Below are positions 29,451 to 37,754 of a stretch of DNA of 64,000 nucleotides, in pieces. The notes under the pieces are model-generated. The model was not told the origin of the DNA. It did not search any database and was given only the letters and a program-made list of their open reading frames with translations. Origin of the DNA: Candidatus Bathyarchaeota archaeon A05DMB-2 (GTDB lineage: Archaea > Thermoproteota > Bathyarchaeia > Bathyarchaeales > Bathycorpusculaceae); the NCBI GenBank assembly GCA_018475625.1, contig JAAKEZ010000004.1, positions 1 to 64,000 on the forward strand. Direction: 5' to 3'. Position 1 is the first letter of the stretch. The number at the start of each line of letters is the position of its first letter. A program made the translations under genes and the position numbers.

Positions 29451-30395
29451 ATGAAAGTAAAACTGTTTGCAGCATGCCTCTTCCTGCTGTTAACAGCAGC
29501 ATCTTTGTCAATTATGCCAACTCACGCCGCAACCGAGGGTCATTGGATAACAAGTTATACTGTGGAAGATGCTCAGACAGGACAGAAGCTAATCGAAGCG
29601 GATTTTGCATTAAGCGATGAGCCTACTGTGTTATCCCCAGTGGTGTCTGGAGCAGAACTTGTGATAACCTTCACCGTTAACGTTGTCGTTGGAGGGTCTG
29701 GCAACTTGAAACTTTCAAGCTACATGCAAAAGCCTAGTAGCGGCACTTATTGGGAACTAATCCCAGGCGACTACGATTTAGGTGCTGGATTCACACCCAA
29801 TGCCGCATCATTCGAGTTCAACTGGCAGAAAGGGACATTCGAGATGATTGCCTATGGTCAAGCAAAAAAAGTTACGGCAGCGGCCATCAACTCCACATTA
29901 ATTCAGTTATCAGGCGCAACTGGCGATGTCTTGGACGCCATAAAAGTGGATATCCTAACTGCGGGAGCGAGCGATTTCCAAAACCTCTACAACCAAAAAG
30001 AGGCTAAACTACAAAGCCTCATCGACTCAGGGGTCGATGCTGGGTACATTACATTGTACGGGAACATGCTAAACCAATCCAAAGCACTGGTAAACAAAGG
30101 CTACGTGAACGAAGCCATAGCATTACTGAACGCGATTCCATCTTCAGGAGAACCGATGGGTTCAGCCTTGCAAATGATTATGATACCCGCAATCGGAGTC
30201 GCAGCGGCTGGTGCAGTAGTATTCGCCTTCCTGTTCCTGAGAGCCAGAGGAAAAAACAGCTACACTCAAATGGTCATTGAAGACCAAATCAAGGACTTAG
30301 AAGGGTTAACGCTGAGAGCATCAAAGATTGACCGAACAATCGCGTCAAATCTGGAAACCGTAAAGGATAGGCTTAAGCGGTTAGTTGGGATGTGA
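29451..30395 (+). CDS. Secreted single-pass membrane protein of tubulin-like locus
   Basis: 314 residues. Cleavable signal peptide (residues 1-26, ending PTHAA), an extracellular beta-rich region (30-170), a helical stalk (175-230), one membrane helix (242-263), and a 50-residue charged cytoplasmic tail predicted helical (IEDQIKDLEGLTLRASKI...). The tail could link the membrane to the tubulin-like protein next door, whose GTG start overlaps this gene's stop. No catalytic motif. I know no named family; the coupling and topology suggest a receptor or anchor. Confidence 0.8.
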   Translation: MKVKLFAACLFLLLTAASLSIMPTHAATEGHWITSYTVEDAQTGQKLIEADFALSDEPTVLSPVVSGAELVITFTVNVVVGGSGNLKLSSYMQKPSSGTYWELIPGDYDLGAGFTPNAASFEFNWQKGTFEMIAYGQAKKVTAAAINSTLIQLSGATGDVLDAIKVDILTAGASDFQNLYNQKEAKLQSLIDSGVDAGYITLYGNMLNQSKALVNKGYVNEAIALLNAIPSSGEPMGSALQMIMIPAIGVAAAGAVVFAFLFLRARGKNSYTQMVIEDQIKDLEGLTLRASKIDRTIASNLETVKDRLKRLVGM

Positions 30396-33088
30396 CCTCT
30401 ACGAGAATATATCAAAACAGTGTACAACTGATAGGTCTGGGTTCAGCTGGAACAAACATCGTAGAAAGCTTTTTGTCCAATAAGAAAACCATGGAACTGC
30501 TGCAAAACGACATAACACGGCTCTCGCTTTTGGCGATTGACATAGCAGATCCTGAAATCAGGAGCCTGCAGGAATCTCACGAGAGAATAGCAAAAGCTAT
30601 GGTGAAAGCGGGCATACCGAGCGAAAGAATGCGGCTCATCGCCCAATCAGTCAAGTTTCCAACAGCTGAAGCGATGTTTGACTTCATCAACCAAAAATAC
30701 AACGAATACTTGGTGAATGAAGGCGCCAAAATTGAACGCTTCGACCCCTGGCTTGAAACAACAATGGCTATACCGCCCATGGCAGGCGGCGCAGGCAGAA
30801 GAAGGGCCCTAGCAAAAGCAATTTACGCATTGAATTACTACCAACTCGGAATAATTCGAAGCTTCATAAACTCATTCAAAGAACAAGCGCTCTCCTCCAT
30901 AATCACGCCAACCGTTGTCCTGATTTACGGACTAGGCGGCGGCACTGGAAGTGGTGTGTTCTTTGAATTCGCTAGGCACCTGCGTAAAGTGCTAGGCTCC
31001 GGCGTACCAATCATTGCTTTCGTTATTGCTCCATGTGGCGGAGACGACCCTCCAGCAAAGGGCTGCTCTGCGTACGTGGCGATGAGCGAGCAGTCTTTGC
31101 TCTTGAACAAGGACTACAATGAGTACGTGGTTAAATCTTTTGGCGAATGTTACCGAAACCCCCTGAATGCGCTAATCTACTTGCCACTGCTGCCCGCATA
31201 CACTAAAGTTGGCAACATCGTTACTGCGCGAAAAGAAATGGATGAAATGGTCGTGGACATGCTCTACGTGCTGATGGACTTCGACCTCGCGGACCTGTTA
31301 GGCGGCATCGGGACAGAAGTCGGACTCACCGACAACTACGTTCACACGCTTGGTATGGTCAAGGTAGTGTACCCGGTAGAAGACTACATTTCAGCGTTTA
31401 AACTGAACTTCGAAAAGCTGGAATTAATCCATGAAATGAGGAAAGAGAAGCTGGAAATTCTAGACGGCATTAACGAAGCAATAAAGCTTGACAATGAGAT
31501 GGCAAGGGAGCTCTACAAGAAATACCTCATAAAAACAGGAACCTACGAGTATGAACAGTTCGAGGAAAAAGTGAAATCCGTAATCTTCGGCAACCCCAAG
31601 CTTGAAGAAGACCTGCTGTTGCACGTTAAGGGCATTGAGCTTCAAGCGAATAATTGGATGAGCGAACTGATGCGGTACCTATCAACTATCAAAAAGATGG
31701 GCAAGGTAGGACCAATCGAGGAAGCCATAATAAATTTGACACTTCACAAGCCCGGCTCCAGAAAAGTAGACAATTTGGAAGCACTCCTCACCAACATCAC
31801 GAAGACGCACCTCGAGTTCTCCGACAGAAAAGCCACAATCTTCGAGCGTCTAAAGCAGCTTGTGCCCAGTTCACAAGTGTTCACTGTACGGCAGAAACGA
31901 GTCTTAGATGACTTCATGAACCTGACAGAAATTGCTGATAGGGCGCTTAACGTCCTCAAGTTTTACGACCACACCCGATACTTAACCGACGCCCTCGTCA
32001 AATACTACGAAGTCCTCCCTGAATCTCAGGCCGAACTGAAAGAGTTAAAGGACATCCAAACTGAACTTGCGACGCTTTACCTCATAGTGCAGCTGATGCT
32101 TAGAACACCGCTCGATGAGTCAAAGATTATCGACGAGCACCTCACCTACGTGAATGGAATCATAGCAAAATACTTAGAAAAGAAAAACGTCCTCGACAAT
32201 GAGCTGTTGCGGGTGCAGGAGACAAAGAAGCGGAAAGAATTCGACAGGACAAAATTGGAAAGAGAACTGCGAAAAGTGCTCAGCATGAAAAAGTATGCGA
32301 GAGAGCAGCTTATACAACTTGAAAGGGACATGAAACGTATTGCGGAAGAAGAATCATACGTCATCGAGAAACTTGACAAGCTGGATGGTATAATTAAATC
32401 TTATGACAGGTTGGCGAAGAAGATTGCGCCGGTTTCTGACTACCGCAAGAGACTGAACAAAATAGTTGATTTGTACCATGAAATCGATGACACGCTGGCG
32501 TACATAACCCGTCCCAAGAAATACTTTGAAAAAGCAACTGAACTCACCGAAGCTGAGCAGATGAAAATAATCTTCAAGATACTGACTGAACAGGAAGAGA
32601 CTCTGACAAAAGATTCAATAGTCAAGGACATACTGGACATGGAGCACTTCAGGGACTACATGAAGAGCGTCATCCGAGTCTTCAAAACGCCGAGCGTCAT
32701 GGGATTCAAGCCCACCTACAAGACTGACTACATCTGGGTCACAATCTCGACTCCTCCAAACCTCTGGAGCGAGGACCTTACACAAGAAGTGTACACTGCA
32801 CTTGCAGGCTACGTCACCAGCGAAGTCTCAAGGACAATAACGGTGCGAGTGATAGAATCCCGCGATGACTGGACAACCAGAGTCCTAGTCGTGGCTGGAA
32901 GAGGCAGACCTGAACATCTCGAGGCGTACGATGAAATGCAGCTGCTGTACAGCAAGTCTAACGACTTCGAAAGACACCTGTCACGCTCATACCTCATCGA
33001 GCACGGAGTAACCGCGGGACAAGTCATCAAAGAAATAAACGCTGTAAACCACAACGATACCCAAGTGTTTCAAGAAAAGAAAAAATAG
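30392..33088 (+). CDS. Large tubulin/FtsZ-superfamily GTPase with coiled coil
   Basis: 898 residues. Residues 1-400 are a tubulin/FtsZ-type GTPase: phosphate loop GLGSAGTN at 15-22, the tubulin signature GGGTGSG at 182-188, and a T7-like catalytic loop DFDLAD at 296-301 where FtsZ has NxDxxD. The acidic residues that trigger GTP hydrolysis in the neighbouring subunit are kept, so assembly into filaments is plausible. Residues about 490-680 are strongly coiled-coil, and 760-898 form another alpha/beta domain. Far longer than FtsZ (about 380). It resembles the long FtsZ-like families proposed to act in membrane remodelling (Pfam Tubulin_2-like). GTG start coupled to the upstream membrane protein. 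Confidence 0.88.
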   Translation: MTSTRIYQNSVQLIGLGSAGTNIVESFLSNKKTMELLQNDITRLSLLAIDIADPEIRSLQESHERIAKAMVKAGIPSERMRLIAQSVKFPTAEAMFDFINQKYNEYLVNEGAKIERFDPWLETTMAIPPMAGGAGRRRALAKAIYALNYYQLGIIRSFINSFKEQALSSIITPTVVLIYGLGGGTGSGVFFEFARHLRKVLGSGVPIIAFVIAPCGGDDPPAKGCSAYVAMSEQSLLLNKDYNEYVVKSFGECYRNPLNALIYLPLLPAYTKVGNIVTARKEMDEMVVDMLYVLMDFDLADLLGGIGTEVGLTDNYVHTLGMVKVVYPVEDYISAFKLNFEKLELIHEMRKEKLEILDGINEAIKLDNEMARELYKKYLIKTGTYEYEQFEEKVKSVIFGNPKLEEDLLLHVKGIELQANNWMSELMRYLSTIKKMGKVGPIEEAIINLTLHKPGSRKVDNLEALLTNITKTHLEFSDRKATIFERLKQLVPSSQVFTVRQKRVLDDFMNLTEIADRALNVLKFYDHTRYLTDALVKYYEVLPESQAELKELKDIQTELATLYLIVQLMLRTPLDESKIIDEHLTYVNGIIAKYLEKKNVLDNELLRVQETKKRKEFDRTKLERELRKVLSMKKYAREQLIQLERDMKRIAEEESYVIEKLDKLDGIIKSYDRLAKKIAPVSDYRKRLNKIVDLYHEIDDTLAYITRPKKYFEKATELTEAEQMKIIFKILTEQEETLTKDSIVKDILDMEHFRDYMKSVIRVFKTPSVMGFKPTYKTDYIWVTISTPPNLWSEDLTQEVYTALAGYVTSEVSRTITVRVIESRDDWTTRVLVVAGRGRPEHLEAYDEMQLLYSKSNDFERHLSRSYLIEHGVTAGQVIKEINAVNHNDTQVFQEKKK

Positions 33089-33102: not shown

Positions 33103-34236
33103 TTAATCTTTGGCTAAGCTCTTGACGATGCCTTGCCAATCTTCTTCTTTTATTAACCCTTTATTGACTGCTTCACTCTCGATATCCTTGGCTTTCTTCT
33201 CCATCGAAGCGAATAGTTTAGACTTGTCGAAGCCGCCTACAAACATGACGACGTCTACACGGTCGCTGACCTCGTCCACGTATATCGGCTCGGTAACGTA
33301 GATGGATTTTAGACTTGCTTTTTCCTTAAACCAGCTTGCTATGGACAACTCAATTTTTCCTCTCGGAAGCTTATCCTTAAGGTGGAGAGGCATACGTACT
33401 AGCACGTAAAGTAGCGAAACGGTTGATACGTCAAAAGCCAAGAGAGGTCTTGACAACGCGGTGTTGAGTATGTTCTCCAGAGAACCATAAATCCTGGGGC
33501 TGGCCCCAGTGGCTGACAGCACTGTGAAAACTTTGACGCCAAAAGACCGAGACAGCTCAGAGAGCTCTTGGACAAGCGTGTCTTTGGAAAGCATTAGCTC
33601 CAGCAAGTACTCCAAGAGGACGTTGCCCTTCATCACCGAGCCGTCCCTGTTGACTCCCACAAAGCTTTCCAGATGGTCCCTGTCTATGAGCAAGACAGTT
33701 GAGGAATCCTGAGAGGCGCACATCCCCAGAGACGACAGCGCATTGAAGTGAACATCTGAAGGCTGCAGTTTCGAAGGCAGTATGGCTAACGCCACCGAGT
33801 TTATGTTCCATTCCCTGAATCGAGCAGCCAAAGCGGGCAAAAGAGCGCTGGCAACACCGTCCCACAAGGAAGAAACCATCAGGGCGTCAGTTACCTTCTC
33901 AACAGACTTATCCTTCAAACGTGCAATGAATGAGTCGTCTTTGGCGATGAAGGATGAAACGTGGAACCAGAAGTGAGTGTCAACCTTCGCGTCTAAACCC
34001 AAAACCCAATCTGGATTAAGCGAGGACTGGCTCCATTTAATGATGTCTTTGCTGGACTTGCCGATGAATAGAGGCATGGTGTCCACTATTTTCTCGACAA
34101 AGTTTTCCTTGAGTAGGATTTTGGTTGGATATTCCCCTATGCACACCACGGCTTGTTGGGGAACGTACTGCCGCAACATGTCAATGTGGTTTCTAATGCT
34201 TTCGAGAACGTCAAACTGGGTTTTTTCGCCGTTCAT
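33103..34236 (-). CDS. Probable inactive tubulin/FtsZ-like paralogue
   Basis: 377 residues, no signal or membrane segment. The middle follows FtsZ order: a helix after SSLWDGVASALLPA (122-135) where FtsZ has its glycine-rich signature; NINSVALAILP (144-154) like the FtsZ strand before its KPF loop; NALSSLG; VLLIDRDHLESF (181-192) like the PNDRLL strand; LSRPLLAFDVS (261-271) like the NPLL segment. The GGGTGSG signature and the NxDxxD loop are both missing (SATGASP replaces the latter). I infer a pseudo-GTPase partner of the neighbouring filament protein. Runs convergent to it and divergent from the membrane gene. The superfamily call rests on my reading of pattern order. Confidence 0.65.
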   Translation of the reverse strand: MNGEKTQFDVLESIRNHIDMLRQYVPQQAVVCIGEYPTKILLKENFVEKIVDTMPLFIGKSSKDIIKWSQSSLNPDWVLGLDAKVDTHFWFHVSSFIAKDDSFIARLKDKSVEKVTDALMVSSLWDGVASALLPALAARFREWNINSVALAILPSKLQPSDVHFNALSSLGMCASQDSSTVLLIDRDHLESFVGVNRDGSVMKGNVLLEYLLELMLSKDTLVQELSELSRSFGVKVFTVLSATGASPRIYGSLENILNTALSRPLLAFDVSTVSLLYVLVRMPLHLKDKLPRGKIELSIASWFKEKASLKSIYVTEPIYVDEVSDRVDVVMFVGGFDKSKLFASMEKKAKDIESEAVNKGLIKEEDWQGIVKSLAKD

Positions 34237-34296: not shown

Positions 34297-36693
34297 TTGA
34301 AACCCGTAAGCAAACTGGAGGCTCTCCACAGGCCTCAATGGTTCAAAAAACATAAGGAGAAAGGAAAAGAAAAAGAAGCGAGACAACGCGGGCAGGAGCC
34401 TCAACTTCTTAGAATGGCAGCTTTCGCCATAACCCTCGCCAGCATGTCTTTGGGGATGTCGCTTCTGCCCGTTTTCCCCCAGCCGCTGCCTATTCTCATA
34501 GCCTTCTTGATTGCCTTCGTCACCTACAAGAGCCCAAAGTTCGGCATGCCCATCGGCGCTCCGCTCATAGCGTTAGGATTACTGTATCACCTGTCTGCGC
34601 TGAACTTCATAGTGGCGTTGGGCGACACTTTCGTTCGCGGACTCGTGGTTTTCATGTTTCTGTTCCTGTTTACCGCCTTGCCGCTGGTTTTCCACGGCTA
34701 CAGGGACGCAATCGCTATTAATCTGGGTATAATCGCGGCGATTTTGCTTTTCTCCGGGGGAACCTATTACCTTGCCGTGCCTTTGATTTTGACCTCGGCG
34801 GTTTTCTTCAAGAAGAAAGCTGTTCTGTCCGCGGTTTTTTACGGCTTGATTTCGGTGCCTCTCATGGTGATGCAGTACTTGAACTACTTCTCGCAGATAG
34901 AAAGACCTGATTGGTGGGTTGAACCTGGCTCCAGCCCACCCATTTACGTTCCGTTGACGCATGTCTTCGAGGGCATGCAGGAGTCGATGGCTCAGTTCCG
35001 ACTGTACGACACTTCGAAGATAGTGTGGAGCATAACTGGGCAGATAACGGATTCTCCGCCACTTGCTGAGCACACGGTGGGCGAGGCGTTGTCCCATTAT
35101 CTCGATTCTCTCCCGGGCATAGCACTCTTCATAGTCATGGTGTTCGGTCTTGTCCTGTTCATCGGGCTTTTAGCCCGCATGCTGTTTGAGAAGACTCCGG
35201 AACTGCCCGGGGAAAGATTGCTTCCCATGGTCACGGCGGTCACTGCCACAGCGCTATTCTTCGTATTCTTAATAGGCCTCCAAGGCGCGTTAGCCTTCAG
35301 AGCTGACGTGAACGGTACACAGATGGTCATTGGCACCTTCGCTACCGTCCTGTTCACGGCGCCTGCGTTGCTGGTTAACACTGCGCCAAAGAAAAGGGCA
35401 ACAACCGAGATGATTATTGCGAAGGCGCAGGAGCTTTTGGGAAAGCTGCAGGTTTTTGAGGGTTCGCTGAACACTGTTAAGAGCAACATTCCGGTTCCGG
35501 TCAGCGCGATTGAGGGAAAGATGCTAGTGGTTAAAGACAGGTTGAACGACATCATAAGCAAAACTTCAACAAGCTACTACGACCTGTCTGAGTCGGATGA
35601 AGTGTTCGACGAACTGGACAAAGACTTAACCAACCAGTTAAACGAGTTAACTACCGACCTCGACGTGGCAGTTTCCGAGTACCAGATATACGTTAACGGC
35701 GAGTACGCGGCGTGGACTGGGAAGCTCCGAGGCATGGGCTTAGAAGTTAAAACCGCCGCGAAAACGGATTTCCAAATAGGCATGCCTATAGAAGACAAAG
35801 TAAATCAAATCAAGGAGGTGCTTGAAGACGGTCAACGTGTCTCCGCCGAATCGGTGCAGGTGGTTGTGCAAGTTTACAGCGTCATACGCTCACTGTACGA
35901 CCCAAGCCTTCCGGAAAAAAGCCAAGCAATAGAGTTTGCCCAACAGAAGCTCAGAGAAGAACCTGCGCCTTGGCTTGCTATGGAGGCTCTTTTCACCGCG
36001 CTTAACAATTGGCGGAAGCAGTACGGCGCCGAGATTTCCAAGTCCGTGCAGTATCTTCAGGACTCCTTAACAGCCATCGCCAGTCTCAACGCTCAAAGCG
36101 AACGCTTGCTCCCGGTTTTAGGCGGGAATTATGTGAAAGTAATGGATGACGCAAAGAAAGCTGCAGAGATCAGAATTATCATAGAAAAGAACTCGCTCAA
36201 CGTCACGAACGTCATCACCATAAAAGATGTTTTTCAGTCCTCGCTGACAATTGCCAAGGACGTGGTTTCAATTCTCTACTCAGAGCTCAAGAGCACCGAG
36301 GAGGCAATCCAGAACCTGCTGCCAGACAAAGATTACCTGTGGGAGAAGAACATTTCCTTGATGGAGCGGCTGTCTTCTGCTGTGAGCCTGTTCTCTGATG
36401 AATCCCAGTATGGCGTGAACAAGGTGCTGGAGAACATGCCCAAATCCTTATCCAACCTGGGCGAGTGCGTGGACACGCTGGACTTATATAATGAGAGGCT
36501 TGAGTTGTTGCTGAACTATCCTATAGCCGCGATGACGATAGAAAGCTTGTCCAAGCAGAAGAAACAGGTTTCCGCCAGAGACCTCCCGTTCGAGTCCCGG
36601 TTCGCGCAGGAGTACCTTAAACTCTTTTATAGCGAAAGCTACAGCCGATTCGTTTTTGACGAATCCAACTTGGCGCTTATGCGAAGAGAATAA
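34297..36693 (+). CDS. Polytopic membrane protein with long helical tail
   Basis: 798 residues. A basic N-terminus (KHKEKGKEKEARQR), about eight to nine membrane segments between residues 38 and 365, with one longer loop around 205-265 (IERPDWWVEPGSSPP). Then some 430 soluble residues, mostly helical and heptad-rich (AKAQELLGKLQVFEGSLNTV onward), likely cytoplasmic. No transporter or enzyme motif recognised. Proposed membrane platform of the tubulin-like system, because it is divergently paired with the inactive paralogue and follows the GTPase. TTG start at 34297. Confidence 0.8.
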   Translation: MKPVSKLEALHRPQWFKKHKEKGKEKEARQRGQEPQLLRMAAFAITLASMSLGMSLLPVFPQPLPILIAFLIAFVTYKSPKFGMPIGAPLIALGLLYHLSALNFIVALGDTFVRGLVVFMFLFLFTALPLVFHGYRDAIAINLGIIAAILLFSGGTYYLAVPLILTSAVFFKKKAVLSAVFYGLISVPLMVMQYLNYFSQIERPDWWVEPGSSPPIYVPLTHVFEGMQESMAQFRLYDTSKIVWSITGQITDSPPLAEHTVGEALSHYLDSLPGIALFIVMVFGLVLFIGLLARMLFEKTPELPGERLLPMVTAVTATALFFVFLIGLQGALAFRADVNGTQMVIGTFATVLFTAPALLVNTAPKKRATTEMIIAKAQELLGKLQVFEGSLNTVKSNIPVPVSAIEGKMLVVKDRLNDIISKTSTSYYDLSESDEVFDELDKDLTNQLNELTTDLDVAVSEYQIYVNGEYAAWTGKLRGMGLEVKTAAKTDFQIGMPIEDKVNQIKEVLEDGQRVSAESVQVVVQVYSVIRSLYDPSLPEKSQAIEFAQQKLREEPAPWLAMEALFTALNNWRKQYGAEISKSVQYLQDSLTAIASLNAQSERLLPVLGGNYVKVMDDAKKAAEIRIIIEKNSLNVTNVITIKDVFQSSLTIAKDVVSILYSELKSTEEAIQNLLPDKDYLWEKNISLMERLSSAVSLFSDESQYGVNKVLENMPKSLSNLGECVDTLDLYNERLELLLNYPIAAMTIESLSKQKKQVSARDLPFESRFAQEYLKLFYSESYSRFVFDESNLALMRRE

Positions 36694-37262: not shown

Positions 37263-37754
37263 TTATTCAGGGGATAGGTGCCATTCGCAGTAAGGGTCGT
37301 TTTTCCCAATGCATTTGGTCTTTTCGATTTTCGGATTTTCGCTCGTGAGCTGACGGTAGATGCCGCTTACGAAGTTTGCCACCGCGTCACAGTAAGTTCC
37401 CCCATCCTTGTGTATTTCCGCGAATAGGTTGTTCCAGATTCTGAATTTCAGTTCAGCCTTTTGCGGATTGAAGTCAACGATTTCTATTTTTCCGAAACCA
37501 GCTTCTGTGAATCGTTGAACCGTAGTTCTGAAGAAGAGCGTGAGGTCAGTTTTTATGTCTTCCGGCATTTCAGTGGCGAAGCGTTCGCCAGATGCATTCA
37601 TGCTTTCTGCGATGATAACAGCGGCGCCTGACTGGAATACATCTGTGAGTCTCTCGAAGATTTGTTCCAGTCTGGCTTTAGTGATAATGATGCATCTGTC
37701 TCCGGTGATTGTGTCTTTTATTATTCCGTTTTCTTTGTCGAAAGTGAGGCCCAT
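37263..37754 (-). CDS. V4R-domain protein
   Basis: 163-residue protein ending in TKCIGKNDPYCEWHL, the signature of the V4R (4-vinyl reductase) domain, a small-molecule-binding fold used in sensors and chlorophyll/aromatic pathways. No DNA-binding or output domain attached. Divergent from the AbrB-arsM pair across 141 bases. Ligand unknown. Confidence 0.8.
   Translation of the reverse strand: MGLTFDKENGIIKDTITGDRCIIITKARLEQIFERLTDVFQSGAAVIIAESMNASGERFATEMPEDIKTDLTLFFRTTVQRFTEAGFGKIEIVDFNPQKAELKFRIWNNLFAEIHKDGGTYCDAVANFVSGIYRQLTSENPKIEKTKCIGKNDPYCEWHLSPE

Follow-up and report, generated by a model that had tools for sequence, protein, structure and literature searches.

A degenerate tubulin-like protein paired with an FtsZl1-type GTPase in Bathyarchaeia

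Results

The open reading frame under study lies at positions 33103–34236 of the window (the whole 64,000-nucleotide stretch of DNA analyzed here), where a preliminary description had placed a 377-residue protein; the frame is present and is read from the minus strand. It converges with the gene for an 898-aa putative GTPase (30392–33088, plus strand) at a stop-to-stop distance of 14 bp, and it diverges from a plus-strand gene (34297–36693) whose 798-aa product has, according to its hydropathy, about eight membrane segments followed by a long helical cytosolic part. The start of the GTPase gene is overlapped by 4 bp by the end of another plus-strand gene (29451–30395), and hydropathy analysis of the encoded 314-aa protein indicates a signal-like N terminus, an ectodomain, and a single C-terminal membrane segment. 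RNA polymerase and NusA-like genes are located upstream, and close homologues come from Candidatus Bathyarchaeota records. Pfam returned no vWA, kinase, or OmpA match among the flanking cassette proteins. A 163-aa protein encoded nearby (37263–37754) has a weak V4R match (E = 0.003, under the curated cut-off), and we found no homologue of it in the other cassette loci.

As a single sequence, the 377-aa protein has no match in Pfam, NCBIfam, PHROGs, PADLOC, or the PDB, and it does not match PF13809 (Tubulin_2). We gathered homologues from 37 of the 256 genomes of the class and aligned 33 of them as a family profile; none was found in the viral contigs searched. The best PDB matches of this profile are the Asgard tubulin AtubB2 (2e-6) and the entries 3zid (Tubulin/FtsZ GTPase, 1.3e-5) and 4b45 (2.2e-4), both of which we take to be CetZ. 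Tubulin-like 7evh, FtsZ, and β-, γ-, and other eukaryotic tubulins follow, with no unrelated protein among the best 36 matches listed. HHalign aligns the family to a broad FtsZ/CetZ-like profile with a score of 68.6 over 312 columns (residues 23–350), compared with 20.3 for the reversed family profile and at most 20.3 for 40 column shuffles. The match to FtsZ sequences alone is weak (23.2) and becomes strong only with the broader tubulin-superfamily profile. PF00091 by itself recognizes 17 of the 33 family members (E ≤ 0.01), and it also hit one member unprompted during the genome scan. Because the HHalign score exceeds those of the reversed and shuffled profiles and is accompanied by the PDB and PF00091 matches, both the GTPase and the C-terminal domain can be regarded as homologous, and by sequence comparison the family is homologous to FtsZ, CetZ, and tubulin over nearly its whole length.

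The profile comparison thus bears out the relation to the tubulin superfamily that the preliminary description had proposed, as well as the FtsZ segment order it had read from the sequence: NINSVALAILP corresponds to S5, VLLIDRDHLESF to S6/T6, and LSRPLLAFDVS to the end of H9. An AlphaFold model of the 377-aa protein, calculated from a 13-sequence alignment, is of low quality (pLDDT 46, pTM 0.44), and therefore no claim about the fold is based on it; the succession of helices and strands that it predicts is in keeping with a tubulin, and Foldseek and VIA searches with it returned weak, unrelated matches in which tubulin was absent. The gene is under purifying selection (dN/dS 0.10–0.21, compared with 0.06 for the 898-aa gene), which together with intact reading frames rules out a pseudogene.

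We then located the nucleotide loops with three MAFFT modes and HHalign, which agree on T4, T6, and T7, and compared them in the 33 homologues. In all of them the glycine signature GGGTGTG is matched, with no gap, by residues W125-D-G-V-A-S-A131, and the segment WDGVASA (residues 125–131; 33844–33864, minus strand) forms a degenerate T4 loop in place of GGGTGSG. The earlier reading that SSLWDGVASA replaces the glycine-rich signature therefore holds, and it extends to the family, in which the loop is typically WDGVGSA and GGGTG occurs in 0/33 members. The counterpart of the T1 loop GVGGAGNN is either CIGEYPTK or gapped, a glycine-rich T1 being absent. In the T6 segment IDRDHL (residues 184–189; 33670–33687, minus strand), the guanine-contacting Asn is replaced by Arg-186 in 29/33 sequences. 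Throughout the family, with few if any exceptions, the T1, T4, and T6 loops are degenerate, from which we infer a pseudo-GTPase whose pocket would be unable to bind GTP in the usual way.

Other parts of the pocket are conserved. The T5/H5 segment PSKLQPSDVHFN (residues 154–165; 33742–33777, minus strand) contains P154, S155, D161, and N165, all invariant in 33/33 homologues, and the H7 Asn at position 209 is kept in 28/33. These residues may leave room for another ligand, and they speak for a tubulin-like protein whose pocket accommodates something other than GTP. We nevertheless consider such a protein very improbable: the window protein itself has Glu-209, and the diverged family members described below lack a recognizable pocket motif.

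The T7 counterpart, aligned to FtsZ NLDFAD, is VQELSE (residues 222–227; 33556–33573, minus strand). Compared with NxDxxD, the Asn is lost and Glu takes the place of both Asp residues; position 224 is acidic in 33/33 homologues, and position 227 is acidic in 26/33 and Lys or Arg in 7/33. SATGASP (residues 241–247; 33496–33516, minus strand), previously proposed to replace the catalytic NxDxxD loop, belongs instead to the S7-H9 segment and occupies the M-loop position. With acidic residues in T7, the protein may thus combine a dead nucleotide face with a T7 face that is still live.

The neighboring 898-aa protein passes PF13809 with 43.9 bits (curated cut-off 27). Its T1 loop GLGSAGTN (30434–30457) is invariant or nearly so in the sets A1 and A4, and the T4 loop GGGTGSG (30935–30955) and the T7 loop DFDLAD (residues 296–301; 31277–31294) are conserved, T7 reading NFDLAD and KFDMAD in the distant relatives at loci L083 and L082, respectively. 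By these sequence features it belongs to the FtsZl1/Tubulin_2 GTPases, and its T1, T4, and T7 loops are intact. An AlphaFold model (pLDDT 57), which we used for secondary structure only, predicts long helices for residues 329–706 (31376–32509; pLDDT mostly 65–89), a helical or coiled-coil insert that follows the GTPase domain. It further predicts, at low pLDDT, a β-α-β-β unit at residues 780–835 (32729–32896), which may correspond to S8-H10-S9-S10 in the C-terminal half of FtsZ. All these segments are encoded on the plus strand.

Among the 256 genomes of the class, 36 carry both genes, one has the 377-aa gene alone, and three have the 898-aa gene alone, so that the two co-occur in 36 of the 40 genomes with either (Fisher p = 3e-39, uncorrected for genome kinship). 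Two of the exceptions are cuts at contig edges (G149, with the 377-aa gene only, and G129, with the 898-aa gene only). In G210 (locus L082), the 898-type GTPase is present and a pseudo-tubulin partner was not detected; this FtsZl1 relative has a Cys-rich C-terminal end and adjoins an ATPase-like gene. What had been described as an inactive subunit next to an active GTPase is a real partnership, and by its strict genomic pairing the 377-aa protein is a dedicated partner of the neighboring FtsZl1-type GTPase. The cassette of four genes is common to all loci long enough to tell, with gene order and orientation kept where checked (families f1 and f27). In G130 (L164, contig C10), the 898-, 377-, and 798-aa genes are frameshifted and the 314-aa gene is intact, which may reflect shared decay or sequencing error. 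A 3.9-kb contig binned as Asgard Candidatus Borrarchaeum (L073) encodes a 62% identical pseudo-tubulin and a 798-aa homologue and is probably a mis-binned Bathyarchaeia contig.

A survey of 398 genomes of the phylum revealed several outside the class Bathyarchaeia in which the 898-aa protein has a close relative, and the neighbors of this relative include a 324–376-aa protein matching the pseudo-tubulin family. These diverged pseudo-tubulins were found by HHalign of neighboring open reading frames and combined into a profile of six sequences, one of them from inside the class (G250; its 346-aa frame alone was not significant in a first HHalign run). The profile scores 125.6 against the pseudo-tubulin family (shuffles ≤20.6); in the comparison with the FtsZ/CetZ profile it reaches 56.1 (shuffles ≤27.6). 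A glycine T4 loop is found in none of the six. Homologues of the 314- and 798-aa proteins are encoded at the outside-class cassettes (99.9 and 99.8% probability, respectively); judged by these profile matches, diverged versions of all four cassette genes recur in other Thermoproteota classes. No pseudo-tubulin partner was found in the vicinity of more distant FtsZl1 types (L154, L155, L157, L159, and L163), and the A5 search of 13 outside genomes for pseudo-tubulin returned none. At L162 (G575, a 3.0-Mb genome), the FtsZl1 gene is interrupted, which recalls the transposon-disrupted Sulfolobus solfataricus gene reported in PMC2875224.

Some family members carry additions to the tubulin-like body. 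Pro-rich, charged C-terminal tails of 60–190 residues are present on the pseudo-tubulins of one genus (g12; L018, L019, L021, L031, L033, and others), several of which repeat a basic KPKRxxRTKK-like motif and recall the tails of FtsZ and TubZ. Two diverged pseudo-tubulins (L158:12377–13390 and L083:3953–5002) have N-terminal Cys motifs (C-x-GH...C-x2-C) of zinc-ribbon-like appearance. Both kinds of extension would suit a regulator or adaptor that is soluble, attaches to the membrane proteins or to the coiled coil, and stays out of the filament lattice. We regard this role as improbable, since the conserved part of the family is the tubulin-like body and not the tail, and the window protein has no tail.

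Discussion

Our analysis suggests, on a somewhat better than even estimate, that the 377-aa protein binds no GTP and serves as a subunit or cap in an FtsZl1 filament anchored to the membrane. The membrane segments in two of its partners and the coiled coil of the third point to a membrane-anchored filament, which agrees with the role in membrane remodeling proposed for FtsZl1 in 2010, and for this pair of proteins we infer polymerization, direct contact, anchoring, and a role as cap or minority subunit. The 898-aa GTPase, whose central part carries a coiled-coil arm, would polymerize with GTP, and the 314- and 798-aa membrane proteins would anchor the filament to the membrane. Through its longitudinal faces, the pseudo-subunit would most probably enter the filament, where it would act as a cap, nucleator, or minority subunit and could control the sites at which filaments start and stop and the GTP turnover at the junction.

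The same genes could encode an obligate heterodimer, in which every protofilament is built from pseudo-subunit and GTPase in 1:1 alternation, as in α/β-tubulin, with the T7 face of the pseudo-subunit on the nucleotide of the GTPase and its dead pocket facing the GTPase T7. Strict gene pairing would fit this arrangement, and so would the co-directional position of the pseudo-tubulin gene in an operon at L152, L153, L158, L160, and L083. The T5/H5 and T7/H8 segments form longitudinal faces in tubulins, and the pseudo-tubulin has conserved residues in both, with two acidic T7 positions in 26/33 members. In Bathyarchaeia, however, the pseudo-tubulin and GTPase genes lie on different strands and are therefore transcribed separately, position 227 is basic in the remaining seven members, and the dN/dS of the pseudo-subunit is ∼2–4 times that of the GTPase. 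We thus view a fixed 1:1 heterodimer as rather unlikely and, because of the separate strand in Bathyarchaeia, favor a cap, nucleator, or minority subunit.

A more specific version of the subunit or cap reading is that the pocket is dead and the T7 face (ExxE) still works, which would give FtsZl1 filaments an integral GTPase-activating subunit or an end-cap. This would represent an independently evolved catalytic split between tubulin subunits, ancient in Thermoproteota, and we put it forward as a tentative idea. A role tied to FtsZ division is unsupported: conventional FtsZ is found in 12 of the 37 cassette genomes and is absent from 25, including the 99% complete G145, so the cassette does not simply serve FtsZ division. 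The window's genome also encodes a conventional FtsZ (G000 contig C103:22133–22627).

The pair and the two membrane proteins are conserved across many archaea, and the "dead" tubulin therefore appears to be a functional component of an as yet unstudied cytoskeleton in archaea. The literature searched offers no mechanism for FtsZl1 systems, described in 2010; a fixed pseudo-tubulin and two conserved membrane proteins would turn this archaeal FtsZl1 branch into a defined, reconstitutable four-part machine. FtsZl1 itself and motif-poor archaeal FtsZ paralogues are already known, and a conserved pseudo-tubulin as a fixed FtsZl1 partner is apparently new: we found neither this nor any report of a pseudo-tubulin or pseudoGTPase with FtsZ in the open-access literature searched.

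Makarova and Koonin (2010, PMC2875224) describe FtsZl1 proteins as an N-terminal FtsZ-like GTPase, an extended coiled coil, and a C-terminal domain, with neighbors that carry membrane segments and a proposed role in membrane remodeling; vWA, kinase, and OmpA neighbors are frequent but not universal. The 898-aa protein and its membrane-segment neighbors resemble this layout. The present cassette differs in having no recognized vWA, kinase, or OmpA partners and in that T7 is identifiable (DFDLAD), whereas the T6-H7 region of FtsZl1 could not be identified in 2010. The sections of that paper covered here name no degenerate tubulin partner. The paper notes the long-standing observation that archaeal FtsZ paralogues can be poor in motifs, and non-canonical FtsZ-like sequences are also recorded for Bathyarchaeia in PMC9723716; in the text covered here, no such paralogue is linked to a fixed FtsZl1 partner.

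Among solved structures, CetZ and the Asgard tubulins (AtubA/B/B2) rank closest to the pseudo-tubulin profile by similarity. They share with it the T5/H5 signature P-S...D...N-A..S-L, but their glycine loop is still of the GTG type and they are assumed to bind GTP, whereas the pseudo-tubulin family lacks this loop. α/β-Tubulin and BtubA/B likewise combine two different tubulin-superfamily subunits, between which catalytic work may be divided. Both subunits bind GTP in those systems, whereas in the archaeal pair, known from its genes, one subunit is without the signature. Should the dead subunit prove to be part of the filament, it would be an independent case of tubulins evolving unequal subunits and would bear on the origin of heterodimers such as α/β-tubulin.
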